Origin: Patescibacteria group bacterium
Lineage (GTDB): Bacteria > Patescibacteriota > Minisyncoccia > Phycocordibacterales > Phycocordibacteraceae
Direction: 5' to 3'
Length of the DNA stretch: 46,445 nucleotides
Assembly (NCBI GenBank): GCA_018969385.1
Contig: JAGWYL010000005.1
Span: forward strand, 1-46,445
The position numbers and the translations under genes are program-made. The notes under the pieces are model-generated. The model ran no database searches, was not told the DNA's origin, and saw nothing but the letters and a program-made list of their open reading frames with translations. The stretch's first letter is position 1; each line of letters opens with the position of its first letter. Shown here piece after piece: positions 3,645-24,170 of this stretch.

Positions 3645-4652
3645 TTATGCGTGCACGATATTCGCGGGCGCGCCCGCCGAAAACGCCTCGATGTTCCCGA
3701 TGGTGGTATCGATGATGCGCGTGACCGCTTCGAGCGTGTCGAACGCCACGTGCGGCGTGACGATGACGCGCGGGTGGTCGATGAGATAGTTGTTCGCGAG
3801 CGCCGTACGGATGGCTTCGTCGTTCGGGTGCGGCGCGGCGAGGAGCATGGATTCGTCGTTTATGTCGCCTTCCTCCTCGAGCACGTCGAGTCCGGCGCCG
3901 GCGAGAGTGCCGTTCTTGAGCGCTTCCACCAACGCCTCGGTCTCCACCACCGCCCCGCGCGCCGTATTCACGAGGTACGCGCCCTTCTTCATCTTCGCGA
4001 ATGCGTCGCGGTTTATGAGGTGATGCGTGTGCGGGTTGTAGGGCACGTGAAGGGAAATCACGTCGGAACGCGCGAAGAGTTCGTCGAGCGAGACGTAGCT
4101 GAAACCGAGCTTCGCCGCAAGCTCGGCATCCTGGTGCACGTCGAAGCACACCACCGTCATACCGAAGCCGCCTCCCATGCGGATGGCGTGCTCTCCGATG
4201 TGCCCGCCGCCCACGATGCCGAGAGTCTTCCCCGCGAGGTCGAAACCGCGGAGCCCCTCCTGTTTGAAGGTGCCTGAATCGCGCACGGAGTCGTTCGCCT
4301 CGATGATGCGGCGCGACAAGGCGAGGATGAGCGCGAAGGCGAACTCCGCGACCGTGTTCTCGCCGTAGCTCGGGACGGAGGCGACCGCGACGCCGCGTGC
4401 GGCGCACGCGGCTAGGTCGATGTGGTCAAAGCCGGTCGAGCGCGTCGCGATGAGCTTCAGAGCAGGGAAGCGTTCAAGCTCGCTCGCGCCGATTTTCGAA
4501 TCGATAAAGATGCACAGAGCATCTGCCGCATCGTCTTTCACGTCCGGATTTGCCTCGACCGAACCCTTATGGAAAACAAGCTCATCGCCCGGCATCTTCC
4601 CGCGCACGTACGCCTCCTCCCACTCTTCGCCCGAAAAATAATGGATTTTCAT
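3645..4652 (-). CDS. D-2-hydroxyacid dehydrogenase, NAD-dependent
   Basis: ATRSTGFDHIDLAA, GKTLGIVGGGHIGEHAIRM, VNTARGAVVET, PHVAFDT motifs. Confidence 0.9.
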   Translation of the reverse strand: MKIHYFSGEEWEEAYVRGKMPGDELVFHKGSVEANPDVKDDAADALCIFIDSKIGASELERFPALKLIATRSTGFDHIDLAACAARGVAVASVPSYGENTVAEFAFALILALSRRIIEANDSVRDSGTFKQEGLRGFDLAGKTLGIVGGGHIGEHAIRMGGGFGMTVVCFDVHQDAELAAKLGFSYVSLDELFARSDVISLHVPYNPHTHHLINRDAFAKMKKGAYLVNTARGAVVETEALVEALKNGTLAGAGLDVLEEEGDINDESMLLAAPHPNDEAIRTALANNYLIDHPRVIVTPHVAFDTLEAVTRIIDTTIGNIEAFSAGAPANIVHA

Positions 4653-4661
4653 GTCGCTTGA

Positions 4662-5900
4662 TTATACCGCTTCCGCTTCCTTTTCAATTTCCAAGAGACG
4701 CTCATACTTTTCGAGTCGCTGTTTCTGTCCCAAGCCGCCCGCTTTGATGCCCTCTGCGCCGACGCCATAGGCGAAGTCGGCGATGAAGGTGTCGTCGGTT
4801 TCGCCCGAACGGTGCGAGCAGATGGCCGCCCAGCCGGCCGCGTGCGTAGCCTCGACCGCTTCGATGGCTTCTTTCACGGAGCCTATCTGGTTCGGCTTTA
4901 TGAGCACCGCGCTTATCGCCTCCTCGCGCGCCGCATGCGCGATGCGCGCGGGATTCGTCACGGTGAAGTCATCGCCGACGACGAGGCATGTGCCGCGAAG
5001 CGCCGCGGTGAGTCTCGCGAAGTCCGCACCCGCGTCTTCGGAGAACGGGTCTTCGATGCTGTGGAAAGGGAAGCGGCTCGCAAGGTCTTCGTAGAGCCTC
5101 ATAAGCGCGTCCGGCGCGTACGTTTCTGCAAGAAGCCGGTAGGCCCCTTCGCTTAGCAGCTCGTTCGCCGCAGCGTCGATGGCGATGGACGTACCCGCGT
5201 GCTCGGCAACGAGCGCGGCAAGAAGCTCGAAGGGCTCCTGAAGCGTCTCGAACGTCGGCGAATAGCCGCCCTCCTCGCCCATCGGCACGTTCCCGAGCGT
5301 GGCGCCGAGCGCGTCGAACGCCGCGCGAGCGGCGGCGAACGCAGCGCTCGTCCTGCCTTCGCACACGAGGATGTATTCCTGGAAGGGGAGGCGGAAATCC
5401 GCATGCACGCCGCCGTTCATCACGTTCACGTAGAGCCGCGGCGCACCGGGCGTCGTTCCCGCGCGCTCGGCAATCGCCTTCCAGAGCGGCACGTTTGCTT
5501 CTTGCGCGAACAAGCGCTGCGCGGCGATGGAGACCGCAAGAATCGCGTTCGCCCCGAGGCGCGATTTATTCGGCGTCCCGTCGAGTGCAATGAGTGCACC
5601 GTCGATTTCGTCAGGCGAATTCCACTTGCGCGCGCAAAGCGCGCGCGCTATCTCGCCCTCCACGTTCGCCACCGCCGTCTCGACGCCGCCATCCGCGTCG
5701 CGCAGTTCGCACGCTTCATGACTCCCCGTACTCTTCCCGCTCGGCACGCTCGCGTGGGTGGACACCGGGTGTCCACCCACTTCGCTTGCCGTCGCCTCCT
5801 TGTGCATACCTGGTATGCACAAGGCGTGGAGCGTCACCTCCACCGTCGGCTTCCCCCGCGTGTCGGGAATTGCCCTCGCCTCAACACGTTCGATTTTCAT
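4662..5900 (-). CDS. eno: Enolase with unusual N-terminal insertion
   Basis: TRGKPTVEV, VPSGKSTGSHEA, NVMNGG, SIEDPFSEDA, VGDDFTVTNP, LIKPNQIGS, SHRSGETDDTFIADF, GLGQKQRLEKYERLL. Confidence 0.95.
   Translation of the reverse strand: MKIERVEARAIPDTRGKPTVEVTLHALCIPGMHKEATASEVGGHPVSTHASVPSGKSTGSHEACELRDADGGVETAVANVEGEIARALCARKWNSPDEIDGALIALDGTPNKSRLGANAILAVSIAAQRLFAQEANVPLWKAIAERAGTTPGAPRLYVNVMNGGVHADFRLPFQEYILVCEGRTSAAFAAARAAFDALGATLGNVPMGEEGGYSPTFETLQEPFELLAALVAEHAGTSIAIDAAANELLSEGAYRLLAETYAPDALMRLYEDLASRFPFHSIEDPFSEDAGADFARLTAALRGTCLVVGDDFTVTNPARIAHAAREEAISAVLIKPNQIGSVKEAIEAVEATHAAGWAAICSHRSGETDDTFIADFAYGVGAEGIKAGGLGQKQRLEKYERLLEIEKEAEAV
5754..5780. repeat. 27-nt perfect palindrome (13+1+13) inside eno
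   Basis: gtgggtggacacc-g-ggtgtccacccac. Confidence 0.9.
5798..5824. repeat. 27-nt perfect palindrome (13+1+13) inside eno
   Basis: ccttgtgcatacc-t-ggtatgcacaagg. Confidence 0.9.
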
Positions 5901-5954
5901 ATATTTCCGATTATATACTCTACAAAACGATCACTTACAGCAACCTCAACTCAT

Positions 5955-5975
5955 TGCCGACACTAAGTGTCGGCA
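5955..5975. repeat. REP-like palindrome copy 1
   Basis: tgccgacact-a-agtgtcggca, identical to copies at 6707 and 6777. Confidence 0.95.
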
Positions 5976-5993
5976 AATCAACCAGACCAGGCA

Positions 5994-6683
5994 TCATAGG
6001 TCGTAGTCTTCAAGGGCTTCGAGTCTGCGGAGCAGCGTTTCGCGGGCGAATTCTTTGAAATGCTCTTGCTCGTCGAATAGTTCTCCAAGGAGTTCCCTGT
6101 CCAAGATCGGCGACACGTCTTTGGGGTTATCGTAATGCCGCAAGCTGGTAAACGGGTTGCGGAGCGCTTCTGCGTATGCCGTATCGAACTCTTGGCAAGC
6201 ACGAGCGAGCCCGCCCGGGTACAGCTCGAACGGATTCTTGACCATGATGTATACGGCAAGATTCTTGAAGTCGGCTTCGTCGGTGATGAGACGAGATTTG
6301 TAGGTCCCCTCGAAGAGGCTCCCGCTCTCGTCGTATTTCTTATTGATGAACTTCGAATACGCCATCGAGATGCGGTGCATGAACCGTGCGATACCGCCTT
6401 CCGTAGTCTCTTTCAGGAACAGATGAATGTGATTGGGCATGAACGTGTGGGCGAGAACGGAAACGATTGGTGCCCGCTCGGGCCATGACGAAGGCCACGC
6501 AAGAGCGTTCATGTCCTCAACGTCGCGCGTCCAGTGGTTCGGCAGCGGCTGGTCATGGTTAAGATAGAAGAGGAGCGCGCGCAATCGCTCAAAATCTCGT
6601 TCGTTGCGGTAAATCGGCATCTTCTTCGTGCCGCGATTGCAGACGTGCACATACGTATCCAGACCGGTTTCGCGATACGCCAT
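5994..6683 (-). mobile_element. RAYT / Y1-type (TnpA_REP, HUH) transposase
   Basis: HVCNRGTKKMPIYRNERDFERL..FMPNHIHLFLKE (HUH)..MAYSKFINKKYDESGSLFEGTYKSRLI..NLAVYIMVKNP; flanked by palindromes. Confidence 0.9.
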
Positions 6684-6706
6684 ATACAAGCATCCTAGCA
6701 CGCGTG

Positions 6707-6727
6707 TGCCGACACTAAGTGTCGGCA
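6707..6727. repeat. REP-like palindrome copy 2
   Basis: tgccgacactaagtgtcggca. Confidence 0.95.
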
Positions 6728-6776
6728 AGTGGCAACAGCGCGGAATCAGCTAAAGGGGATGGAGCGCGGGGTGTGT

Positions 6777-6797
6777 TGCCGACACTAAGTGTCGGCA
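6777..6797. repeat. REP-like palindrome copy 3
   Basis: tgccgacactaagtgtcggca. Confidence 0.95.
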
Positions 6798-6888
6798 ACA
6801 GCGAAGGTTGAGCGTGGGGGGGTAGAGCGCGCGGGTGTTTAGTGCCCGCGCGTGTCCGGTATGCTCCTCGCCTCTGCCCGTTCGATTT

Positions 6889-7407
6889 TCATAGACTTCC
6901 TTGTTCTATCAATTCGTTAATATACGGAACAAAGTGCCCTTGGTATCTATCCTGCACTTCTTTGAGTTTCCAGTCGTTGCCGGTAATGGTGTGCCGGCAA
7001 AGAGGAGAACCACACCGGCAAGGCTCGTCCATTACCCAATTCTCGTCTATCGACCACGTCGCATAGTCGGCAGTTATTTCTTCGCCCGGAGCGATGTCTC
7101 GACGAGCAACAAGAGTGACTTCATCTGTGAGCCATGTGTTTGGGTCGCAGGAATGATTAAGGTAAATATCATCAGAGTACGGCTCGTCTAGTTTGCTCCC
7201 GAGCCAGTGATGCGCATCGAGTCTTGACGCCGTGTACTTCTTAATGAGCCCCGCTGCTTTTTCTTCTTCAGTAAACACAGTACCGCCCCATACGCTTACC
7301 GTCTCTCCTTTCCCTATGGGAGCCGTCGCAAACATGCCGCGCCCTTTACCGGAGTCTCGCACCTCTATGCGCGGATCAATCCAGGATTCTTTTTTGTACT
7401 CTTTCAT
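6889..7407 (-). CDS. SET domain protein (putative protein-lysine methyltransferase)
   Basis: GKGRGMFATAPIGKGE, YLNHSCDPNTW, RRDIAPGEEITADYATW, post-SET CRCGSPLCRHTI. Confidence 0.9.
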   Translation of the reverse strand: MKEYKKESWIDPRIEVRDSGKGRGMFATAPIGKGETVSVWGGTVFTEEEKAAGLIKKYTASRLDAHHWLGSKLDEPYSDDIYLNHSCDPNTWLTDEVTLVARRDIAPGEEITADYATWSIDENWVMDEPCRCGSPLCRHTITGNDWKLKEVQDRYQGHFVPYINELIEQGSL

Positions 7408-7423
7408 TAGATTGCGTCTATAT

Positions 7424-9847
7424 CTATCGACCCAGTTTCTCCTCGATTTCGGCGACGTGCTCGATGGTCTTCAGGACGGAGTCGGGGTTGAGGGACATGC
7501 TTTCGATGCCTTCCTCGACGAGGAATTCCGCGAAATCGGGGAGGTCGGAGGGGCCTTGGCCGCAGATGCCGAGGTATTTCCCGCGGGCCTTGCACGTGCG
7601 GACGACTTTCGATATGAGCGCGCGGACCGCCTCGTCGTTCTCGTTCGAAATGTGGCTCACGATGCCCGAGTCGCGGTCGAGCCCGAGCGTGAGCTGCGTG
7701 AGGTCGTTAGAGCCGATACTCATGCCGTCGAAACGGTCGAGGAACTCTTCGGCCAGGAGCACGTTCGAGGGAATCTCGCACATCACGTACACCGGCGTCG
7801 TCTTCTGGCCGTCCTTCGCGAGCGATTTCGCGACCAGTCCGTTCTCGGCCATGATGGCGAGCACCGCGTCCGCTTCCTTGGTCGTGCGGCAGAAGGGAAT
7901 CATCGGGATGACGTTCGCAAGCCCCATCTCGTCCCGCACGCGCGCGATGGCGCGGCACTCGAGCTCGAACGCGCCCTTGAATTTCGGATCGTAGTAGCGG
8001 CTCGCTCCGCGCCAGCCGAGCATCGGATTCTCTTCGGAAGGCTCGTACGCTTCGCCGCCGAGCAGGGTGGAGTATTCGTTCGTCTTGAAGTCGGAGAAGC
8101 GCACGATGACGGGGCGCGGCGAGAACGCCGCGCCTATCTTCCCGATGCCGTACGCGAGGTTGTCGACGTAGAACGCTATCGGGTCCGTCCAGCCGGCCAT
8201 CTTCTCCGCGATGGCGGCTTTCACCTTCGCCGGCTGCTTCTTCAGGTTGAGGAGCGCGAGCGGATGCACGCCGATTCCGGAAGCGATGATGAACTCTTCG
8301 CGCGCGAGCCCTACGCCCGCAACGGGCAAGAACGAATCCTCGAACGCGATGTCCGGCGACGCGATATTCACCATGATGTGCGTCTTCGTCTCGGGAAGCT
8401 TCCCGATGTCGTGCTCGTACCGCTCTATCTTCTTCGGATGCCCCTGCGTCACGATGCCCGCGCTTCCCGTCGTATCCACGGTGATTTCCATGCCGGACTT
8501 GAGCGCTTTCGTGGCGTTACCCGAGCCGACTATCGCCGGAAGCCCGAGCTCGCGCGAGACGATGGCCGCATGGGAGGTGCGTCCGCCCTTGTCGGTGACG
8601 ATGGCCGAAGCCATCTTCATGATGGGTTCCCAGTCCGGGTCCGTCATCGTGGTGACGAGCACCTCGCCTTTCTTGAACTCCTTTATCTGCTTGGGCGAGA
8701 GGATGATGTGCGCCTTGCCCGTCGCCACCTTGGAGCCCACCGAGATGCCGCGCACGAGTTCGCGCCCCGCGCCCTTTACCGCGTACTCCACTATCTTCGA
8801 GAAGTCGCGTCCGGCCTGTACCGTCTCCGGCCGCGCCTGCACGAGGAAGAGCTCTCCCGAGATGCCGTCCTTGGCCCATTCCATGTCCATCGGCGTCCAC
8901 TTCTTCGCGCATTCCGAATAGTGCTCTTCCACCGTCTTGCCCCAGGACGCCATCGTGACTATCTCTTCGTCCGAAAGCACGAATCGCCTCGTGTCCGCTT
9001 CAGGCGTCGGGACCACCTTGGTCTGTTCGACCGCATCGCGTCCCGTCGCGTATATCATCTTCTTCCTGTTCGTGCCTATTTTCTTCCAGATGATGGGGGA
9101 CTTCACCTTCCCGATCCTCGACTTCGAGACCAGGTACTCGTCCGGCGTGACGTGTCCCTGCACGATCATCTCGCCGAGGCCGTACGTGGCGTTCACCACG
9201 ACGACATCCTTGAAGCCGTTTTCGGTGTCGACGGTGAACATGACGCCGGACGCGCCCTTATCCGAACGCACCATCTTCTGCACCCCGACGGAGAGCGCGA
9301 CTTTCATGTGGTCGAAGCCCCGGTCCGCGCGATACGAGATGGCGCGGTCCGTGAAGAGCGAAGCCATGGTCCACACGGCGGCGCGCACGACGTCTCTGCC
9401 GCCGCGGATGTTGAGGTACGTCTCCTGTTCGCCCGCGAAAGAAGCGCCCGGAAGGTCTTCCGCGGTCGCGGAGGAGCGCACCGCGACATCCGTGTCCTTC
9501 CCGTACAGCTTTTCCATGCGCGCGTACGCGTCGGTTATCTTCTTTTCGAGGTCCTTCGGCAGCGGCGTCGCGCGCATCTTCTCGCGGATGAGCTTTCCCG
9601 AGCGGGAGAGCTCCTTGAGGTCCTTGGTGTCGAGCCCCTTGAGCGTCCGTTCTATGAAAACGTCGAGGCCGGTCTCTTCGAGATAGTGGAAATACGCGGC
9701 TGCCGTGACGGCGAAGCCGTGGGGGATGCGCACGCCTTTCGGCTCCACGGCGCGGATGAGTTCTCCGAGGGACGCGTTCTTGCCGCCAACCTGCGGCACG
9801 TTGTCCATGCTGATTTCGTCAAACCAAAGGATGAATTTCGATTCCAT
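7424..9847 (-). CDS. ppsA: Phosphoenolpyruvate synthase
   Basis: FDEISMDNVPQVGGKNASLGEL, VRSSATAEDLPGASFAGEQETYLN, VTDKGGRTSHAAIVSRELGLPAIVG. Confidence 0.95.
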   Translation of the reverse strand: MESKFILWFDEISMDNVPQVGGKNASLGELIRAVEPKGVRIPHGFAVTAAAYFHYLEETGLDVFIERTLKGLDTKDLKELSRSGKLIREKMRATPLPKDLEKKITDAYARMEKLYGKDTDVAVRSSATAEDLPGASFAGEQETYLNIRGGRDVVRAAVWTMASLFTDRAISYRADRGFDHMKVALSVGVQKMVRSDKGASGVMFTVDTENGFKDVVVVNATYGLGEMIVQGHVTPDEYLVSKSRIGKVKSPIIWKKIGTNRKKMIYATGRDAVEQTKVVPTPEADTRRFVLSDEEIVTMASWGKTVEEHYSECAKKWTPMDMEWAKDGISGELFLVQARPETVQAGRDFSKIVEYAVKGAGRELVRGISVGSKVATGKAHIILSPKQIKEFKKGEVLVTTMTDPDWEPIMKMASAIVTDKGGRTSHAAIVSRELGLPAIVGSGNATKALKSGMEITVDTTGSAGIVTQGHPKKIERYEHDIGKLPETKTHIMVNIASPDIAFEDSFLPVAGVGLAREEFIIASGIGVHPLALLNLKKQPAKVKAAIAEKMAGWTDPIAFYVDNLAYGIGKIGAAFSPRPVIVRFSDFKTNEYSTLLGGEAYEPSEENPMLGWRGASRYYDPKFKGAFELECRAIARVRDEMGLANVIPMIPFCRTTKEADAVLAIMAENGLVAKSLAKDGQKTTPVYVMCEIPSNVLLAEEFLDRFDGMSIGSNDLTQLTLGLDRDSGIVSHISNENDEAVRALISKVVRTCKARGKYLGICGQGPSDLPDFAEFLVEEGIESMSLNPDSVLKTIEHVAEIEEKLGR

Positions 9848-9857
9848 GAAAGATCTC

Positions 9858-11150
9858 TTAGCTCTTAAGCGCGATGATGAGGTCGGAAACGTTCGAACCG
9901 GTATAGCCGGTTTCGAGAAAATCGCCCGTCTCACTGAAGAAAGTATAACTCTCATGCGCCGAAAGGGAGTCGGCTATGGAGAGGTTCCGTTCCTTCGCGT
10001 GCGCGAGCGTCGCCACATCCGCGATGGCGCCCGCATGGTCCGTGTTGTCGCGTCCGTCGGACGCGAACGGGAGCACCAGCTCATCCTCGCGGACGTTCGC
10101 GAGGGCGCCAAGCGCGAGTTCCTGGTTGCGGCCGCCCTTGCCCGCGGCGCCGGCAATCTTCACGGTGCTCTCGCCGGCGTAGAGAAGCGCGGTCTTCGCC
10201 TCTGCCGCATGAAGCGCTTCCGCGATGCGTTCGCCTACGTCGCGCGCTTCGCCCGCGATGCGGTCGCCCGCGACATCCGCGCGGTAGCCGCGCCGTGCCG
10301 CTTCCGCGCGCATCGCGGCGAGCGCGTCGCCGTTCCCGAGGAAGAGCACGTTCGAGACGCGCGCGAAGTACTTCGGGTCCTTCGGCGTCTCGATGAACGC
10401 CGTGTCGGGGGGCGCGGCGATGCCGTAGCGCGCGAGCACCGCCTTCGCTTCGTCGACGGTCGAGGTGTCGCATGCCGTGGGACCCGAGGCGATGAACTCG
10501 ATATCGTTCCCCGGCACGTCGGAGACGATGAGCGAGACGACCTCCGCCGGATACGCGGCGGCGGCAAGGCCGCCGCCGCGCGCCTTCGAGATGTGCTTGC
10601 GCACGGTATTGAGTTCCTCGATGGTCGCGCCCTTGTCCGTGAGCTCGTCAAAGAGCGTCCGTTCGTCCGCACAGGTCATGGCCGCGTCCGGAAGGCAGAG
10701 CAGGGTGGAGCCGCCGCCCGAGATGAGCATGAGGACGAGGTCGTCCTCGCGGCACTCGGAGAGGAAGGCGACGATGCGTCCGCTCGCGCGCACGTTCGTC
10801 TCCGACGGTTCCGGATGCGTCCCGATGAGCACCTCCGTCTTCGTGAGCCCGCGCGCTTCGATGTCGGACACGTCGAACGCGATTCCCGCCGTAAGCCGTT
10901 CGCCAAGCAGCGTCTCGACGGCGCACGCGCCCGCGACCGCGCACTTGCCGATGCCGACGAAGAAGATGCGCCGGCCGCTTATCGGCCGGCGCAGTTCGCC
11001 CGCGACCAGTTCGCCGCCTTCGATGCGCATCTTGGCGAGCACGGCGCCGTGCGTGTTTACCGCGGCGTACGCGGCCTCGGCGATGGCGAGCGCATCCTCG
11101 CGCGGGCGCGTGACGGCGAGCGCGCCGCTGTTCCTGATGATGTCCGCCAT
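9858..11150 (-). CDS. Glycerate 2-kinase (DUF4147/MOFRL family)
   Basis: VGIGKCAVAG, LISGGGSTLLCLP, LNTVRKHISKARGG, SDVPGND, GKGGRNQELAL, FASDGRDNTDHAGA. Confidence 0.9.
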   Translation of the reverse strand: MADIIRNSGALAVTRPREDALAIAEAAYAAVNTHGAVLAKMRIEGGELVAGELRRPISGRRIFFVGIGKCAVAGACAVETLLGERLTAGIAFDVSDIEARGLTKTEVLIGTHPEPSETNVRASGRIVAFLSECREDDLVLMLISGGGSTLLCLPDAAMTCADERTLFDELTDKGATIEELNTVRKHISKARGGGLAAAAYPAEVVSLIVSDVPGNDIEFIASGPTACDTSTVDEAKAVLARYGIAAPPDTAFIETPKDPKYFARVSNVLFLGNGDALAAMRAEAARRGYRADVAGDRIAGEARDVGERIAEALHAAEAKTALLYAGESTVKIAGAAGKGGRNQELALGALANVREDELVLPFASDGRDNTDHAGAIADVATLAHAKERNLSIADSLSAHESYTFFSETGDFLETGYTGSNVSDLIIALKS

Positions 11151-13748: not shown

Positions 13749-15764
13749 ATGATTCGTACCGTATCGTTTCCCGTGCGAGCCGCCTTACTCGTCAGCATCG
13801 TTTTCGGCTTCGCATCCTTCGCGTTTGCAGCCGTCCCGCCGAGCCTGTCGCTTTCGGCGACGGGAAGCGGCGACAACGTCCAGGTGAACGTCTATGGAGA
13901 CCCGAACTCGAGCGTGCTCCTCTCGTATACCGAAAGCGGCTCCGGCCCGACCATCGTCGTCCTCGGTTCCACCGACGCGAACGGCAATTACTCTTCCGTC
14001 CTATCGAGCGCGAGCTACGGGCTCGTTTCGGGAACGGCGGTCACGGCCATCGTCGGCGGCACGGGCGGGCCGAAGTCGCAGACCGTCTCGTGGCCGACGG
14101 TGACCTCGGCAAACGCGCTCACGTTGAGCCAGGACGCGGTCGTGCTCTCCGTCGGTTCCTCTTCGACCGTCACCGCGAACACCATCGGCTCCGCGGCGCT
14201 CTACGTTTCCAATAACTCGAATCCCTCCATCGCGAACGTGAGCATCAGCGGCTCGCAGGCGACCATCGCGGGCGTAAGTTCCGGTTCGACGACGATTACC
14301 CTCTGCCAGGTGGGGAACACCGCGAACTGCCCGAGCGTGTACGTTACGGTGGAGCAGGCCGGCGCAGGGCAGCTCTCATTCAGCCAGAACAACGTGACGG
14401 TAGTGAGCGGCCAGAACCTGCCGCTCACCGTAAGCGGCGGAAACGGAGCGTATCAGATACTGCGCAACTCGAACGCGAGCACCATCCAGGCGAGCCTCTC
14501 CGGTTCCGTGCTCACGCTTTCGACTGGCGCTTCTACCGGCTCCTCCTCGATAACCCTCTGCTCGACCGACATGGCCGCTTGCGGCGTCGTCGTGGCGAGC
14601 GCGGGCAGCGCGAGCTCGGTCGCCATCACGTTCAGCAACAGCGCGCCGGTGGTCTCCACGAACGAAAGCGCGACCGTCGCCATCTACGGCCCTTCGGGCG
14701 TGCAGTTCTACGTTTCCTCCAATTCGAATCCGAGCATCGTGCAGGCGAACCTCTCCGGCACCTCGCTTACGCTCACCGGCCTTGCGGCGGGCACGTCGTC
14801 CGTGGCCGTGTGCGCGTCGACGGGCACGTGCGCGAACCTTTCGGTGACCGTACAGTACGTCGCGACCGGCGGAAACATAACGCTCGGCCAGACCACGCTC
14901 TCGCTCCTTGCCGGACAGAACAGCGTGCTCACCGTCTCCGGCGGCGAACAGCCGTATACGGTCATGGGCGGCACGAGTTCCGTCTCGCAGGAGACGCTTT
15001 CGGGAGGTTCGCTCACGGTCTACGGCGTCGCCGCGGGCACCTCATCGGTCAACGTGTGCTCTTCGGGCGGCGGATGCGTGCCGCTCGACATCACCGTGAG
15101 CGGGGGCGGCACGTCCGCGGCGCTCTCGACGAGCCGGTCGAGCGTTTCGCTTTCCGTCGGCGGGAACGCCGCGGTAGCGCTCTACGGGAACGGTTCCTAC
15201 TATCTTTCGGGGAACACCGCTTCGAATGTCGCATCGGCTTCCGTTTCCGGCGCGAACCTCTATCTCACCGGCCTTGCCGCGGGGAACACGAGCGTCACCG
15301 TCTGCGCAAGCGGCTCCGTCTGCGCGACGATTCCCGTGACGGTTGCCGCAGCGAGCGTCACGCCTCCCGAACCGCCGTCCGCGGCAAGCGGCGGCTACAC
15401 GTTCACCGAATACCTTTCGCCCGGCAAACAGGATGCGGAAGTCACGGAACTCCAGAAGATGCTCGCCGCGGAAGGCTATCTCACCGTCGCGCCGACGGGC
15501 TACTACGGGACCCTGACGGAAAACGCCGTCCTCGCGTTCCAGAAAGCGAAAGGCATCACGCAGCTCGGCGTGGTGGGTCCCGCGACCCGCGCGGCGCTCA
15601 ATACGATAGCGGCCGGCGCGAATGCCGTTTCCTCCGGAAGCGCGAACGCGGTCGGCACGCCCATCGCGAGCATGACCTTGAGCCAGCTTCAGGCGGAAGT
15701 GCAGCTCCTGCAATCGGAACTCACGCAGGCGCTTACGCGCATCGCGCAGCTGACGGCGCACTAG
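13749..15764 (+). CDS. Secreted surface protein: five Ig/BIG2-like repeats plus C-terminal peptidoglycan-binding domain
   Basis: Signal peptide; repeats ending in VCASTGTCANLSVTV-type motifs; PG-binding VTELQKMLAAEGYLTVAPTGYYGTLTENAVLAFQKAKGI. Confidence 0.85.
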   Translation: MIRTVSFPVRAALLVSIVFGFASFAFAAVPPSLSLSATGSGDNVQVNVYGDPNSSVLLSYTESGSGPTIVVLGSTDANGNYSSVLSSASYGLVSGTAVTAIVGGTGGPKSQTVSWPTVTSANALTLSQDAVVLSVGSSSTVTANTIGSAALYVSNNSNPSIANVSISGSQATIAGVSSGSTTITLCQVGNTANCPSVYVTVEQAGAGQLSFSQNNVTVVSGQNLPLTVSGGNGAYQILRNSNASTIQASLSGSVLTLSTGASTGSSSITLCSTDMAACGVVVASAGSASSVAITFSNSAPVVSTNESATVAIYGPSGVQFYVSSNSNPSIVQANLSGTSLTLTGLAAGTSSVAVCASTGTCANLSVTVQYVATGGNITLGQTTLSLLAGQNSVLTVSGGEQPYTVMGGTSSVSQETLSGGSLTVYGVAAGTSSVNVCSSGGGCVPLDITVSGGGTSAALSTSRSSVSLSVGGNAAVALYGNGSYYLSGNTASNVASASVSGANLYLTGLAAGNTSVTVCASGSVCATIPVTVAAASVTPPEPPSAASGGYTFTEYLSPGKQDAEVTELQKMLAAEGYLTVAPTGYYGTLTENAVLAFQKAKGITQLGVVGPATRAALNTIAAGANAVSSGSANAVGTPIASMTLSQLQAEVQLLQSELTQALTRIAQLTAH

Positions 15765-15827
15765 GCGCGGCTACGGGTACGGCGTCGGATCATCCGCATC
15801 CCGCTCGAAAGGGACGCGGCCCTTCGC

Positions 15828-17336
15828 TCATGCGAAGCCGGGGAAGAAGTCAGACCTGATGTGGCGGCGGGGAACGCCCATGCCCGCGAGCGTGTCGGTG
15901 AACGCGCTCACCATGCCGTGCGGGCCGGAAATGTAGAAGATGCGTTCGGCGTAATCCGGAATCTTCTTGCGGATAAGTTCCGCGTCCACGCTGCCCGCAT
16001 GCGCGCCCGGTATCGGGCCTTTTTCGTCCGAAAGCGCATAGACGGTGCGGATGCCGAGTTCGTTCTGCGCCTTCTCGAACACGTCTTCATAGGAGACGTC
16101 TTCGGCCTTGCGGTTCGCGTAAAGCATCACGACGGAGCGCGGCTCCTTCTTGTCGACGAGATACTGGATCATGCTCCGGAACGGCGTCACGCCGATGCCG
16201 CCCGCGATGAAGGCGAGCTTCTTCTTCGGGTCGCGGGGCAGCGTGAATTCACCCGCGAGGTGCGACACGGAAATCTTGTCGCCTATCTTCATGGCCGCGA
16301 GCGCGCGCTTGAAGCTGCTCGCCTTCTTGTAGAACTTCACGCCGAGATGCACGTCGCCTTCGGTGGGGGAGGAAGCGATGGTGAAATAGCGGCGATTCCC
16401 GCGGCCGTCCGGCGACGCGTGGGCGAGCGTCCACTCGAGATACTGTCCCGGCGAGAACGCGAACGCGCGGTCGCTCTCGAAGACGAAGTCGTACACGCCG
16501 CTCCCCGTCTCCCGCACCTCCTTGAGCGCGAGCATGAAGCGGCCTTTCGGGCTCGCCGCCCATGAGAAGACGTTGCCGGCGATAAGCGCGAGCTCCGGCG
16601 TGAAGAAGAACCCGAAAAGGCTGAAATTCGGCGAGAACAGGAGGCCGACGAGCGCGCCGTATCCCATGCGCAGCCATCGGTTCGGCGGCGTCGTGAGCGG
16701 CTCCGTGAGCATGACGGACGCGAAGAAGATGAACGGCGTGTGGAGGAAGAGCGTCATGACGCCCGTCAGGGGATTGCCGGACGTGGCGAGGAGCGAGACG
16801 AACGTGACCGCGAAGAACGCGAGCACGAGGTCGAAGCGCTGCACCTTGCGCGTGATGAGGAATCCGCCGACGAGGACGAACGGGAGGAGTATGAGGTTGC
16901 CGCCGACCCACCACGTGGCGGACTGGCTGATGAGGAGCGCGGAGAGCGCAACACCGAACGCGGCCGGATTGAAGACGTGGCGCTTCCCGACCGCGAAGAT
17001 GAACTTCGACGCCATCGCCCACACCGACGCGAATATGAGGAACCCGGTGCCGGCGAGGTTCCCGGGCGCGACGGGCGTGATGATGAGTACGAGGATAAGC
17101 GCCGTGATGTATACGGATTCGACGTTCGCGATGGCGTCGAACGTCCACGCGAACACGCGGTTCGAAAGCCACGAGGCGGCGAGGACGACCGCCGTGGAAT
17201 AGGCGAGCGAAAGCGGCGCGTAGGGAAGCCAGCCGACGGCGCCGAACAGGGCCGCGAGCGCCAAGAGCGCGATGAGGTGGTAGAGCACGAGCCGGTACAT
17301 CGTGATGCCGTTCAGGAAGTTGTCGACGTATTTCAT
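15828..17336 (-). CDS. RnfD/NqrB-like membrane domain fused to FNR-type FAD/NAD(P) oxidoreductase
   Basis: N-terminal TM helices with NqrB/RnfD-like GKRHVFNPAAFGVA; C-term RYFTIASSPTE (FAD), AGGIGVTPFRSM and YISGPHGMV (NAD(P)). Confidence 0.85.
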   Translation of the reverse strand: MKYVDNFLNGITMYRLVLYHLIALLALAALFGAVGWLPYAPLSLAYSTAVVLAASWLSNRVFAWTFDAIANVESVYITALILVLIITPVAPGNLAGTGFLIFASVWAMASKFIFAVGKRHVFNPAAFGVALSALLISQSATWWVGGNLILLPFVLVGGFLITRKVQRFDLVLAFFAVTFVSLLATSGNPLTGVMTLFLHTPFIFFASVMLTEPLTTPPNRWLRMGYGALVGLLFSPNFSLFGFFFTPELALIAGNVFSWAASPKGRFMLALKEVRETGSGVYDFVFESDRAFAFSPGQYLEWTLAHASPDGRGNRRYFTIASSPTEGDVHLGVKFYKKASSFKRALAAMKIGDKISVSHLAGEFTLPRDPKKKLAFIAGGIGVTPFRSMIQYLVDKKEPRSVVMLYANRKAEDVSYEDVFEKAQNELGIRTVYALSDEKGPIPGAHAGSVDAELIRKKIPDYAERIFYISGPHGMVSAFTDTLAGMGVPRRHIRSDFFPGFA

Positions 17337-17351
17337 AGGGACTCTCGTTGG

Positions 17352-17432
17352 ACCCGAAGACCTGATGGGCAGGAAGACCGCTCCGGGGCGCTTGCCCGAG
17401 TCTTAGTCTTCCTGCCCATCAGGTCTTCGGGT
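17352..17432. repeat. Long inverted repeat, two 27-nt perfect arms separated by 27 nt
   Basis: acccgaagacctgatgggcaggaagac ... gtcttcctgcccatcaggtcttcgggt. Confidence 0.95.
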
Positions 17433-17442
17433 TCCCTCGTAC

Positions 17443-18189
17443 TCATGGTATGGCAAGCGCGTTCCATCCGTCCGTCATGGTCGCGACCTTGTCGGGCGTG
17501 ATGCCGTATCCTTCGAATCCTGAAAGGTTGGCGATGAACGCGAGTCCCTTCTTGCCCATCGCGAATGCGGCGGTCGCGAAGCGGTCGGCTTCGAGCACGT
17601 CCGGTCCGACGACGGTGAGGCTCACGAGTTCGTCCGGCGCTTTCCCGGGCGCGTGCGGGTCGTAGATGTGGTTCCCGCGGATATAGTTTCCGGACGTGGC
17701 GACGCCCTGCCCGCGCGGGTAGATGACCTTTACTATCTCGTCGCGCGAAAACGGATTCCGGATTCCCACGCTCCACGGTTCGCCCGCTCGGTTCACGCCC
17801 TGCGACGCGACATCCCCGCCCGCATCGACGAAGAAATTCTCGTGCCCCGCGGCCTTAAGCCGCGACGCCGCTTCTCGTATCGCCCATCCTTTCACGATGC
17901 CGGAAGGGTCGAGCGTGCCGGCGGGCGTCCGTATGTCGAAATAGCCGTCCGTCTCCCGCTTCGTCTTCTCCGCGAGCGCGAAGATGTCGCGCATGTCCTG
18001 CGAGTATTCGCCTGGCGAAAGCTCGCCGCGGTTGATGCGTGAAATCTCGCTGTCCGGCTTATACGTGCTCATGCGCTCGTCGACGCTTTCGAAGAAAGAG
18101 AATACGTCTTCGAGCGTCTCGGCGGTCGCGGACTCGTCCGCGACTTCCACCGTTACGGGCATGCCCATGCTAAGCCTCGTGTCCCGCAT
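17443..18189 (-). CDS. apbE: FAD:protein FMN transferase (ApbE family)
   Basis: MGMPVTVEV, DPSGIVKGWAI, FFVDAGGDVASQG, ATSGNYIRGNHIYDPHAPG. Confidence 0.95.
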   Translation of the reverse strand: MRDTRLSMGMPVTVEVADESATAETLEDVFSFFESVDERMSTYKPDSEISRINRGELSPGEYSQDMRDIFALAEKTKRETDGYFDIRTPAGTLDPSGIVKGWAIREAASRLKAAGHENFFVDAGGDVASQGVNRAGEPWSVGIRNPFSRDEIVKVIYPRGQGVATSGNYIRGNHIYDPHAPGKAPDELVSLTVVGPDVLEADRFATAAFAMGKKGLAFIANLSGFEGYGITPDKVATMTDGWNALAIP

Positions 18190-18192
18190 GCG

Positions 18193-18732
18193 TCAGGCGT
18201 TCTTCGCTTTCGCGAGCGCATCGGCAAGAGACTGCTGGAACGCCATGCTCGTGTCGGTGGCGCCCGAAACGATGTTCACGTTCGCGCTCTGCGCGGCGAG
18301 CGCTTCCTGCGTGAGATACGGCATCGCCTGGCTGTTGATGTAGCGGGACGTGCTGCGGTCACTCGGGTACTGGAGGAACGTGACGTTCGAAATCTTGCCG
18401 CCCGAGACGTTCACCTCGACCTGGACGTATCCGTAGTACGCGTCCGCGACGCTCCCGGTGTAGGTGCCGTCCGCATAGAGACCCTTCGGCTTCGGCGCGG
18501 GAACGGGAGCCGGAGCGGGCGCTGGCGCGGGTGCCGGCTTCGTGGAAGGAGGCGGCGTGCTCGCGCTCGCCGTGTTCGCGGGCGCTGGCGCGGGACTCGT
18601 GCCGGAGGTTACGGGAGCCGCCGGCGAAGAAGTGACCGCGACGGACACGGGCGCGGCGTTCCCCGCGTTCTGCGAGAACGCGTAGACGACGGAAAAGAAT
18701 AAGACGATAGCGGAAAGGATGGCTTTCTTCAT
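18193..18732 (-). CDS. Secreted FMN-binding domain protein with Pro/Ala linker
   Basis: MKKAILSAIVLFFSVVYAFS signal; YADGTYTGSVADAYYGYVQVEVNVSGGKISNV; flavinylation motif SGATDTS. Confidence 0.9.
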   Translation of the reverse strand: MKKAILSAIVLFFSVVYAFSQNAGNAAPVSVAVTSSPAAPVTSGTSPAPAPANTASASTPPPSTKPAPAPAPAPAPVPAPKPKGLYADGTYTGSVADAYYGYVQVEVNVSGGKISNVTFLQYPSDRSTSRYINSQAMPYLTQEALAAQSANVNIVSGATDTSMAFQQSLADALAKAKNA

Positions 18733-18787
18733 GTTCGGGTATGTATCAGATAGTACACGCCTAGGGGCGCTTTCTTTCACCCGCGCC

Positions 18788-19486
18788 TTAGAGCGGGTGG
18801 ATACCGTAGGCGCGTACCGTGCCGCTCGCCGCATCGCCCGCTACGTAGAGCCGCTCGCCGACGTGAAGGGAAGCGGCGTCGAATCCGGACGGAGGAGTGA
18901 CGGTGTACGTCCGTTCATCGGCGTCGGTGTCGCGGTCGTTACAGGCGAGGGAGAATCCGTCCGTGCCGATGGCGGTAACGGTGCCGCGGAATACGCCGCG
19001 GTCTTCCTGCGGCGCGCGCAGCGCCTCGTAGAGCTCTCCGACGAACGGGAGTTCGCCGCGGTCCGCGCGTTCCTGGAGGAGCGGATGGAGCGGCGTGAGC
19101 GAGACGATGAAGCCGAGGGCGAACGAAGCGGCCAGTATGGCTGCGAACGCGAAAAGGAGCGGCGAGCGGTAGCCGAGGCGGAAGCGGCGCAGCTGAAGGC
19201 CGATGAGCGCGACGAAGACGGCGACCAGGATGAGTCCGGTCCAGGGGATGAAGCCGAGGAACGTCGAGACGCCCCGTCCGCCGAAGCCGAGCAGGAGCCA
19301 TTCGCCGCTTTCATGCACGCTCCAGAACCCGAAGGATGCGATGAGCGCGATGAGCGCGAGCGCGAGCGCGATGAGCGCGATGGCGCCCGCGACGCGCACG
19401 GCGAAATACGCGCGCGAATGCATCGCGACCTGGCCGCTTCGTATCCGTTCGAGCACGTTCTTCTTGATGTCTTCGGGGTTGTTCAT
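18788..19486 (-). CDS. Membrane protein overlapping ECF sigma gene; candidate anti-sigma or accessory factor
   Basis: ATGA overlap with sigma stop; several TM segments plus soluble C-terminal domain. Confidence 0.6.
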   Translation of the reverse strand: MNNPEDIKKNVLERIRSGQVAMHSRAYFAVRVAGAIALIALALALIALIASFGFWSVHESGEWLLLGFGGRGVSTFLGFIPWTGLILVAVFVALIGLQLRRFRLGYRSPLLFAFAAILAASFALGFIVSLTPLHPLLQERADRGELPFVGELYEALRAPQEDRGVFRGTVTAIGTDGFSLACNDRDTDADERTYTVTPPSGFDAASLHVGERLYVAGDAASGTVRAYGIHPL

Positions 19487-20061
19487 GGGGTGAGGTGCGA
19501 ATCATGCGCGGGGTCGGCTTCGAGGTGCTTCTTGAGCGCCTCGCGCGCGCGTTTCAAGCGGACGCCGACCGTACCGGTCGGGACATGCAGCACGTCCGCT
19601 ATCTCCCGATACTCGAGTTCCTCCAGATAGTAGAGCGCGATGATTTCGCGGTATGCGGGAGAGAGCTTGCCGATGCCGCGTTCGACGACGCGCCGCATCT
19701 CTTCGCGCTCCGCCGCCGATTCCGTATCGTCGGCGCTGTGCGCCACGATGGCGTCGAGGTCGAGGAAGACGAGCGGATCGCGGTCCTTCTTCCGGAGCGC
19801 GTTCACGAACGCGTTGTGCGCGATGCGGTATATCCAGGGCGACCACCGGCGGGTCGTGTCGAAATCCATGATGTTCCGGTACGCCTTGATGAACACCTCC
19901 TGCACGACGTCCTCGATGGAATCCTCGGTTCCAAGGAACCGCCTGCCGTAGCGCATGAGCTTCGGCTGGTACCTATCCATGAGTACCCCGAATGCGTCCT
20001 GATTATTTCCCTGGACCAGTGCCGCAAGCTCTTCGTCCGTCCGGGTGTCCGCGCCTTCCAT
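19483..20061 (-). CDS. ECF-family RNA polymerase sigma factor
   Basis: AFGVLMDRYQPKLMRYGRRFLGTEDSIEDVVQEVFIKAYRNI; LSPAYREIIALYYLEELEYREIADVLHVPTGTVGVRLKRAREALK. Confidence 0.95.
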   Translation of the reverse strand: MEGADTRTDEELAALVQGNNQDAFGVLMDRYQPKLMRYGRRFLGTEDSIEDVVQEVFIKAYRNIMDFDTTRRWSPWIYRIAHNAFVNALRKKDRDPLVFLDLDAIVAHSADDTESAAEREEMRRVVERGIGKLSPAYREIIALYYLEELEYREIADVLHVPTGTVGVRLKRAREALKKHLEADPAHDSHLTP

Positions 20062-20147
20062 AGGCGGAGTATACCGCGCGCCGGCGAAGCGGGTTTCCGG
20101 ACATGCGGTATTCCAAATGAACGCGGTGCACGGTATGCTGGTGCGTA

Positions 20148-20852
20148 ATGCAAGCAGTCATCCTTGCCGCGGGCGAAGGGAAACGCATGCGCCCCCTGAC
20201 CCTCACGCGCCCGAAGCCGATGGTGGAGGTTGCGGGGAAGCCGCTCCTCGCGCACATCATCGACGCGCTGCCGCCGGAGATAGACGAGGTAATCCTCGTC
20301 ATCGGCTACAAGCGGGAAGCGATACGCGAATATTTCGGGAACGAGTACGGCGGCCGCCGCATCACGTACGTGGAGCAGACGGAGCCGCTCGGCACCGGCC
20401 ATGCGCTCCATCTTGCGCGTCCCCATATCCGCGGACGGTTCCTGTTCATGTTCGCGGACGACCTGCATGGGCCGGAAGACCTCGCGGAGGCGCTGCGCCA
20501 TCCGCTCGCCATCCTCGCGACGAGGCACGAGGACCCGAAACGTTTCGGCGTCATCGAGGTGAGCGAAGACGGCCGTCTCATCGGCATAGAGGAGAAGCCC
20601 GCCGAACCGCGTTCGAACCTCGTCTCCACGGGCGCGATGGTGCTCGACGAGCGCATCTTCGGCTACGAGCTTGAGCGCCATGAGAACGGCGAATACTACC
20701 TCACGAGCCCCCTGGCGCGTCTTGCCGAAGAGCATCCGGTCATGGTGGTGGAGCAGGGGTTCTGGGTGCCGCTCGCGTACCCTGAAGACGTGGAGGCGGC
20801 TGAGCGCATCCTCGCGGAACGCGCCGCCGTTGAAGGTTCGTCCGCCGCATAG
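20148..20852 (+). CDS. Nucleotidyltransferase (sugar-1-phosphate NTP transferase)
   Basis: MQAVILAAGEGKRMRPLTLTRPKPMVEVAGKPLLAHIIDAL. Confidence 0.95.
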   Translation: MQAVILAAGEGKRMRPLTLTRPKPMVEVAGKPLLAHIIDALPPEIDEVILVIGYKREAIREYFGNEYGGRRITYVEQTEPLGTGHALHLARPHIRGRFLFMFADDLHGPEDLAEALRHPLAILATRHEDPKRFGVIEVSEDGRLIGIEEKPAEPRSNLVSTGAMVLDERIFGYELERHENGEYYLTSPLARLAEEHPVMVVEQGFWVPLAYPEDVEAAERILAERAAVEGSSAA

Positions 20853-21038: not shown

Positions 21039-21728
21039 GTGCCGATAGCTCGAACGCTCAATCAGGATTTCTTCAAGAAGTGGACGCCGGAGATGGCGTA
21101 CGTCCTTGGCTATTTTGCTGCGGACGGTTCGATGATTCGCCACCAAAATAGAGGTTGCTTCATTGAGTTTACTTCAACGGACAAATCCTTGCTCGCCACT
21201 TTGCGGCACGTAGCGGGCGCGGGACAACGCATAGCGACTCGGAAACGTCGGAGTCGTAACTGGCAAGAGCAATATCGCATCCAAATTGGATCGAAAGAAT
21301 GGTTCACCGACCTGACCAAACTCGGCTTCGCTCCCGCCAAAAGCACAATACTTACATTTCCCTCCGCACCCAATGCGTACTTAGCGCATTTCGTACGGGG
21401 CTATTTCGATGGTGATGGCTGCGTGTACTTCAGGAAGCTGCAATACGCAGACCGCACTCGCAAGAGATGGGTGCTTATGTCGCTGTTTACGAGCGGTTCG
21501 CGAGACTTCCTGGAATCATTATGGATAGTACTTAAGACGAATGGCGTTAGTGGCGGCACGATTCAACCGAAAACAAGGGGATTTGAACTGAAATTCAGCC
21601 ACCGGGACAGCCTTGCACTCTACCGCTTCATGTATGATACTGCCTCTGCTACAGAGCCGTATCTCCCACGGAAGCGCACGCTTTTCCGGAAAGCGATACG
21701 GACCCTGTATCCGGAACTGCGGGGGTAG
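21039..21728 (+). CDS. LAGLIDADG homing endonuclease (GTG start)
   Basis: Two motifs: MAYVLGYFAADGSM and LAHFVRGYFDGDGCV. Confidence 0.9.
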   Translation: MPIARTLNQDFFKKWTPEMAYVLGYFAADGSMIRHQNRGCFIEFTSTDKSLLATLRHVAGAGQRIATRKRRSRNWQEQYRIQIGSKEWFTDLTKLGFAPAKSTILTFPSAPNAYLAHFVRGYFDGDGCVYFRKLQYADRTRKRWVLMSLFTSGSRDFLESLWIVLKTNGVSGGTIQPKTRGFELKFSHRDSLALYRFMYDTASATEPYLPRKRTLFRKAIRTLYPELRG

Positions 21729-22835: not shown

Positions 22836-23225
22836 TTACGCCGCAAGGCTGGCGATGACGCGCTGCAGCTTTTCTTCGGCTTCGGCGGCAACGGACGCGA
22901 GCGCCGTATCGTCGAGCATGCTCATGGCGGCGGTCGGCCGTATGGCTTCAATGACGACGCGGTCGCCTTCCTCATAGACGATGACGTTGCAGGGCAGGAA
23001 GAGGCCGATGTCTTTCCGCGCCGAGAGCGCGCGGTGAGCAAGTCCCGGATTGCATGCGCCGAGGATGACGTACGGCGCATAGTCCGCGCCCATCTTCTCT
23101 TTCATGGCGGCTTGCACGTCTATTTCGGCGAGCACGCCGAACCCTTCTCTGGCGAGCGCCGCCTTCGTCGCGGCGAGCGCTTCGGGGAAACTCTTGGCGA
23201 GTCGTACCGTGTATGAGATTTCCAT
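22836..23225 (-). CDS. DUF302 domain protein
   Basis: FPEALAATKAALAREGFGVLAEIDVQAAMKEKMG..YVILGACNPGLAHRAL..GLFLPCNVIVYE. Confidence 0.9.
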   Translation of the reverse strand: MEISYTVRLAKSFPEALAATKAALAREGFGVLAEIDVQAAMKEKMGADYAPYVILGACNPGLAHRALSARKDIGLFLPCNVIVYEEGDRVVIEAIRPTAAMSMLDDTALASVAAEAEEKLQRVIASLAA

Positions 23226-23238
23226 GATGTTGTGTCGG

Positions 23239-23508
23239 TTATTTCTTCTTAGAGACCTTGTATACCGCCAGGATTTCGCTGATGGCTTTCTTCTGCGCTC
23301 CGCTCCTCATCTGCTCGACGACGTGCGTCGCGAGATGGTTTTCGAGAAGCGCGTCCTCGACCGCCGAGAGCGCCTGCCGTATCGCGGACGCCTGCGTGAT
23401 GACGTCGATGCAATACGCGCCGTTCTCGACCATCTTCTCGAGTCCGCGCACCTGTCCCTCGACGGTTTTCAACCTGCGCACCACTTTCCGCTTGACGTCA
23501 GGTTTCAT
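23239..23508 (-). CDS. CsoR/RcnR (DUF156) family metal-sensing repressor
   Basis: RRLKTVEGQVRGLEKMVENGAYCIDVITQASAIRQALSAVEDALLENHLATHV. Confidence 0.92.
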   Translation of the reverse strand: MKPDVKRKVVRRLKTVEGQVRGLEKMVENGAYCIDVITQASAIRQALSAVEDALLENHLATHVVEQMRSGAQKKAISEILAVYKVSKKK

Positions 23509-23517
23509 GGGTCCATA

Positions 23518-23534
23518 ATACCCCCAGGGGGTCT
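23518..23534. promoter_or_regulatory. Probable CsoR-family operator
   Basis: atacccccagggggtct: G/C-tract palindrome between divergent csoR and Met-rich gene. Confidence 0.7.
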
Positions 23535-23570
23535 TAGGTCAAGAACGCGTATCCGCATAACTTCCTTCGC

Positions 23571-24170
23571 ATGAAGACATTCGCACTCGGGACACTCTTT
23601 TCAGTACTCGCGCTCGTCGGCTTGGGCGGGGTGGCGCACGCGCAGATGATGTACGGCAACGGCTCCGGATACGGTCCAGGCATGATGGGTGCCTATTACG
23701 GCGGGGAGGCGGCAAGTACGACCGCGAGCACGACGGACAGCGGTGACGCCGCCGGCGCCGCGCTCTTGCAGAAGCTCTCATCAGGGCAGACGACGTGCGC
23801 GTCGCTTACCGAGAGCGACTTCGCCGCGCTCGGCGACTATTTCATGGGTTCGATGATGGGTTCCTATCACGAGCAGGCGGACCAGTACATGACGCAGTCG
23901 CTCGGAGCGCAGGGCGACGAGGCGATGCACGTAGCGATGGGTGAGCGGCTTTCGGGATGCAATCCGTCCGCGCCGTATCCGAACGGCGCGTTCGGTTCCT
24001 ATCCGCCCGCGCGCGGCGGATGGGGCATGATGAGCGGCTGGTATCCCGTCATGGGATACGGCTATAGCCCCTTCGGCTGGCTCGGAAACGCGCTTCTCGT
24101 CATCTTCGCTATCATCGGCGTCATCGCGCTTGCGCGATGGGCTCTGCATCTGCTGGTTCACGGACGCTAA
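23571..24170 (+). CDS. Met/Gly/Tyr-rich secreted, C-terminally anchored protein
   Basis: Signal peptide; MMYGNGSGYGPGMMGAYYGG, YFMGSMMGSYHEQADQYMTQ, C-terminal TM. Confidence 0.65.
   Translation: MKTFALGTLFSVLALVGLGGVAHAQMMYGNGSGYGPGMMGAYYGGEAASTTASTTDSGDAAGAALLQKLSSGQTTCASLTESDFAALGDYFMGSMMGSYHEQADQYMTQSLGAQGDEAMHVAMGERLSGCNPSAPYPNGAFGSYPPARGGWGMMSGWYPVMGYGYSPFGWLGNALLVIFAIIGVIALARWALHLLVHGR

Follow-up and report, generated by a model that had tools for sequence, protein, structure and literature searches.

The closest described relative of the locus presented here is the NQR/RNF-like flavinylation system. Meheust and colleagues (2021, PMC8238504) reported the same core from 127 clusters, chiefly in Actinobacteria and the candidate phyla radiation, and proposed that electrons flow through it in one direction; the system was also modelled by Huang et al. 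(2024, PMC10979944), in whose analysis the flavinylation threonine of NqrB/RnfD is not conserved. We analysed a window of 46,445 nucleotides, which is contig C29 of a Patescibacterial genome (G000; 757,562 bases in 32 contigs, 92.6% complete; relative genomes are labelled G0xx and loci L0xx or L1xx). The named records among its relatives are mostly Patescibacteria MAGs (Nomurabacteria, Yanofskybacteria, Doudnabacteria, and others). All five minus-strand genes of an initial annotation are present, with the domains claimed for them: SIG and MEM, which overlap, followed by FMNB, ApbE, and FUS (Table 1). Like the published system, this operon encodes an NqrB/RnfD-like domain joined to a C-terminal PF00175 domain, a separate FMN_bind protein, and an ApbE, and it belongs to that system both by its fusion architecture and by the clustering of the fusion gene with ApbE and FMN_bind genes. 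Unlike the published system, it carries a sigma-MEM module and a predicted promoter, and its ApbE has no signal peptide. The term "sigma factor" does not occur in the main text of Meheust et al. (PMC8238504).

Table 1. Features of the flavin operon (window coordinates)
Feature	Position	Strand	Description
TATACT	20068..20073	-	-10-like element, 6 nt 5′ of the SIG start codon; possible leaderless promoter
SIG	19483..20061	-	ECF sigma factor, 192 aa; nearest curated model SigW
MEM	18788..19486	-	Putative anti-sigma partner; cytosolic helix, three TM helices, extracytosolic OB-fold (DUF5666-like)
TGAAAG-N14-CGTGTA	18754..18779	-	Predicted SIG-dependent promoter, from comparison between loci
FMNB	18193..18732	-	Membrane-anchored FMN_bind protein, RnfG/NqrC-like domain; flavinylation motif VSGATDTS
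ApbE	17443..18189	-	FAD:protein FMN transferase without signal peptide; sole ApbE of the genome
FUS	15828..17336	-	NqrB/RnfD-like membrane domain (about 1-262) and NqrF-like FAD/NAD(P) reductase domain (about 265-497)

The FMNB-ApbE-FUS core is an already known, coherent unit. Of 389 Patescibacteria genomes sampled evenly across the phylum, 65 have the fusion, and among 59 relatives ApbE and FUS were found together in 18 and were both missing from 39, with one genome holding each alone (p=5e-13). The earlier impression that this compact arrangement is unusual finds no support in these frequencies or in its publication from the candidate phyla radiation. Co-occurrence of the genes, proposed as a check, was borne out for ApbE with FUS, whereas the sigma module is clade-restricted and accompanies a subset only. 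The core, then, is not novel; what is new is the operon's own sigma switch with a matching promoter and, in addition, an apparently cytosolic ApbE. A Devosia MAG also has FMNB-ApbE-FUS, on a contig of 425 kb (L044, NZ_MKVA01000008.1), and the FUS of this set is nested in the Patescibacterial clade of the FUS tree (support 100/100, 18-row set); transfer to an alphaproteobacterium or misbinning is possible.

FUS was described in the initial annotation as an RnfD/NqrB-like domain and a ferredoxin-reductase-like domain in one protein, and we agree. The reductase part matches PF00175 (1.9e-15) and PF00970 (2e-4), with NqrF as its top PDB profile match (5.9e-18). The membrane part falls below threshold for PF03116 (NQR2/RnfD/RnfE; 7e-4, 19.5 bits against a cut-off of 27.7); comparison with the Escherichia coli RsxD profile nevertheless gave E=3.7e-8 over 105 columns, including LTDPVT/LTEPLT, and the weak RnfD call is therefore accepted as real homology. 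The predicted structure has a mean pLDDT of 86. Among 23 homologues, the reductase motifs RRxFTxxS and GGxGxTPF are among the invariant or nearly invariant positions, and position 140 is always Thr or Ser (23 of 23 rows) and is followed by an invariant WW. The operon shares homology with the RnfD/NqrB, RnfG/NqrC, and NqrF pieces of the RNF/NQR complexes, from which it differs in that FUS has its reductase joined to the membrane domain and shows no 2Fe-2S domain by Pfam, and in that the subunit search, which covered PF02508 (RnfA/E, NqrD/E), found no match in the 92.6% complete genome. The original proposal of a minimal route from NAD(P)H to an extracytosolic flavin, free of other Rnf/Nqr subunits, is supported as regards RnfA/E-NqrD/E.

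SIG contains sigma regions 2 (PF04542, 1.1e-18) and 4 (PF08281, 1.7e-15) only, the makeup of an ECF factor, and matches the NCBIfam SigW model at 5.4e-37, which is below that model's cut-off. The TATACT element directly 5′ of its ATG recurs in four other loci (L023, L024, L026, and L043). A SIG-MEM pair precedes FMNB in the window, in L023, L024, L026, L029, L030, L043, L048, and L063, and in three loci found later (L143, L149, and L157), so that the SIG-MEM-FMNB order is seen in the window and 11 other loci from four families (f1, f19, f31, and f66); the contig of L027 begins within MEM. A same-strand sigma gene lay within 6 kb of FUS in 5 of 40 sampled loci against about 1.1 expected (a rough estimate, p=0.005). 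Most FUS loci thus have no neighbouring sigma gene, which counts against the sigma-switch reading. Judged from the sequences, the sigma factor genuinely belongs to the operon in a subset of loci, and it is the sigma module alone that is restricted to a clade. Near the operon in L035, L038, and L148 lies a different sigma gene, together with another small membrane protein and a small protein that is DUF5666-like by eye.

MEM has no accepted Pfam domain and overlaps the SIG stop codon; its predicted outer domain resembles DUF5666 weakly. A search of 59 genomes with MEM alone gave matches in 23, and all 29 full relatives with upstream sequence lie directly behind, and overlap, a sigma gene (four low-scoring matches not behind a sigma gene, at least three of them DUF5666-like secreted proteins, were not counted). 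Common to the relatives are three TM helices and a short segment on the cytosolic side, VLEKIxxG...MRPRxYF; an outer domain is usually present as well. The AlphaFold2 model of MEM (pLDDT 83) combines a short helix in the cytosol with three TM helices and an OB-fold on the outside; Foldseek returned OB-fold matches for the outer domain, all of them weak (E about 0.01-0.03) and none at E<=0.001, and we read the structure as an OB-fold outer domain and nothing further. From its topology and from its adjacency to and overlap with sigma genes, we infer that MEM is a putative anti-sigma factor. The pair resembles those of the SigW-RsiW type in the proximity of SIG to SigW, in the TGAAA...GTA promoter, and in the overlapping membrane-protein gene; it differs in MEM itself, which spans the membrane with three TM helices, carries an OB-fold outside, and contains no domain recognised as anti-sigma. 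A literature search, whose coverage stopped short of the ECF classification (doi 10.1093/nar/gkaa1229), returned no match for this sigma-partner group. A second sigma-MEM pair is found at L104 (G000:C16), L092, L094, and L099-L101. At L085, L089, and L086, the secreted DUF5666-like neighbours of the pairs resemble the outer domain of MEM.

The FMN-binding protein had been annotated as secreted, with a start at 18834. Its domain (PF04205, 1e-7) and its motif stand, and the start is most likely 18732 (MKKAILS), because most homologues open with the same kind of anchor; this leaves a 55-bp gap between MEM and FMNB that bears the predicted promoter. The SigW consensus is TGAAAC-N16-CGTA, and the window motif fits it; our literature search for that consensus returned nothing. 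The pattern TGAAAN{15,16}CGNGTA has two matches in the 757-kb genome. One is at the MEM-FMNB junction; the other (C16:10121-10146) lies inside the coding end of a paralogous MEM, and part of the conservation may therefore be protein coding. In pairs of the C16 type the motif overlaps the MEM 3′ coding end (SER..ARS.CKGIRPY), where the codons used (AGA and CGT AGT) suggest a constraint at the DNA level. A longer form of the pattern matches about 90 sites across 59 genomes, of which 6 lie directly 5′ of FMNB, and paralogous sigma-MEM pairs in G011 and G042 have the motif on both flanks.

Between loci, a SigW-type motif was found at the MEM-FMNB junction in 10 of 11 scored sigma-linked loci versus 10 of 46 unlinked ones (p=4e-5), and a best score of at least 10 of 11 was reached 5′ of FMNB in 8/11 versus 4/46 (p=4e-5; 0.35% of random 120-nt windows), most of the linked loci having themselves served to define the motif. 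Of the three loci added after the definition, L143 scores 11/11 and L149 and L157 score 9/11, a value that 4% of random windows reach. L063 has SIG-MEM and lacks the motif. The four high-scoring unlinked loci (L025, L049, L046, and L057) all come from the genus of the window, and because these sigma-less members retain the motif, another, perhaps paralogous, sigma factor with a similar site may read it there. No TTGACA/TATAAT sigma-70 promoter was found in a scan of 15500-20400. Cognate regulation of the flavin operon by SIG is a prediction that the sequences support well; the original suggestion that the flavin route is under its own sigma factor is probably right, given the operon order, the dedicated partner, and the conserved promoter.

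We consider it probable, on comparative grounds, that this Patescibacterial locus encodes an electron-export unit of the NQR/RNF-like type, equipped with an ECF sigma switch of its own. In such a unit, MEM would hold the SigW-like SIG at the membrane until its outer OB-fold sensed some extracytosolic condition and SIG was released; RNA polymerase would then start at the motif before FMNB, and FMNB, ApbE, and FUS would be made. A basal start at TATACT could supply a small pool of SIG and MEM. The path and direction of the electrons are taken from the published NQR/RNF-like model: FAD in the reductase domain of FUS would accept a hydride from NAD(P)H, electrons would cross the membrane via flavin in the NqrB/RnfD-like domain, and FMN fixed by ApbE on the SGATxT motif of FMNB would receive them and pass them to an outside acceptor. 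In many relatives a 2-hydroxyacid (lactate-type) dehydrogenase gene lies 5′ of the operon or of the sigma pair, which is consistent with a role in NADH balance. Elsewhere in the window (3645-9955, minus strand) are 2-hydroxyacid dehydrogenase, enolase, and PEP-synthase-like genes. A terminal oxidase was rejected as the general acceptor; COX1 is absent from G000 and exceeds the cut-off in 4 of 59 relatives. A cupredoxin, encoded near FUS in three loci only (L035, at 9559-10026; L171; and L177), is a candidate acceptor as a lead only.

The identification of ApbE as a flavin transferase holds (PF02424, 6.6e-44), and the conserved ApbE motifs DAGG, TSG, HIYDP, and ADxxxT are present; the missing signal peptide, overlooked in the initial annotation, complicates the route that had been proposed. 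In all 28 distinct members of the family the protein starts with the first strand of the fold, which leaves none of them room for a normal signal peptide, and many have a stop codon within six codons upstream. A folded flavoprotein is not known to use Sec, and a search for TatC in G000 and in 35 genomes of its genus gave no match. According to a review, most ApbEs are secreted and some, such as that of Klebsiella, are cytosolic. FMNB has a hydrophobic N-terminal anchor followed by a Pro/Ala/Thr-rich linker, and a [SN][GA]A[TS]x[TSA] flavinylation motif is present in 63 of 66 homologues. ApbE appears cytosolic whereas its substrate looks extracytosolic, a paradox for which the options are that flavin is attached before or during insertion, that ApbE exits by another route, or that FMNB faces inward. 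Tentatively, ApbE might flavinylate FMNB in the cytosol before or during Sec insertion while an outer-OB-fold anti-sigma family controls the operon via a SigW-like promoter, a combination that we regard as doubtful. If it were true, the cell would not need an FAD exporter.

An inward-facing FMNB, on the same side as ApbE, would make the whole unit a membrane-bound NAD(P)H diaphorase without outward electron flow. The signal-less ApbE, the only one in a genome without detectable TatC, is what one would expect of such an arrangement. The excess of positive charge on the N side of the FMNB anchor in 52 of 66 homologues favours an N-in, C-out orientation, however, as does the linker behind it, and RnfG and NqrC are themselves extracytosolic; we think the reversed topology quite unlikely. 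That the unit is a degenerate Rnf/Nqr ion pump is very improbable: the homology of FUS to RnfD/NqrB and NqrF would fit, but the genome has no PF02508 protein and the published analysis proposes that electrons flow one way (Meheust 2021, PMC8238504).

On the regulatory side, MEM might be an activator, a sensor, or a scaffold. None of 24 members has a known anti-sigma domain, the best curated anti-sigma model (NF052375) scores 16.4 bits against a cut-off of 100, and the cytosolic tail is only about 25 residues long; its conservation, however, together with the TM helices, the outer domain, and the constant association with sigma genes, makes a role other than anti-sigma factor rather unlikely. 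A broader doubt concerns the whole module, which could be a mobile or neutral neighbour whose sigma factor serves other genes while housekeeping promoters read the flavin operon. Linkage of SIG-MEM to the operon has been repeatedly gained or lost (seven changes on the FUS tree, at least four of them forced on well-supported branches), and the pairs at L085, L089, and L086 stand beside genes for secreted proteins of the DUF5666 type and not beside a flavin operon. Against this, the association recurs at the same position and on the same strand, and the promoter is tied to the MEM-FMNB junction in most linked loci, which leaves a mere neighbour unlikely.

Several other genes recur or lie nearby. 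MacAB- or EmrAB-like efflux genes are found by the flavin operon at L025, L029, L030, L032, L033, L148, and L173. By eye, the window also encodes a LAGLIDADG endonuclease-like protein (21039-21728, plus strand) and, at 22836-24170, DUF302-like, CsoR-like, and Met-rich secreted proteins, perhaps a metal-response cluster.

Patescibacteria are mostly uncultured and are thought to be fermenters. An electron outlet under regulation is relevant to how they rid themselves of reducing power or deal with hosts, and where the promoter can be read, sigma-MEM pairs could be used for regulon prediction in this group. ApbE and its targets are usually held to meet outside the cytosol, and a sole, signal-less ApbE whose substrate is apparently outside is in clear conflict with that view.
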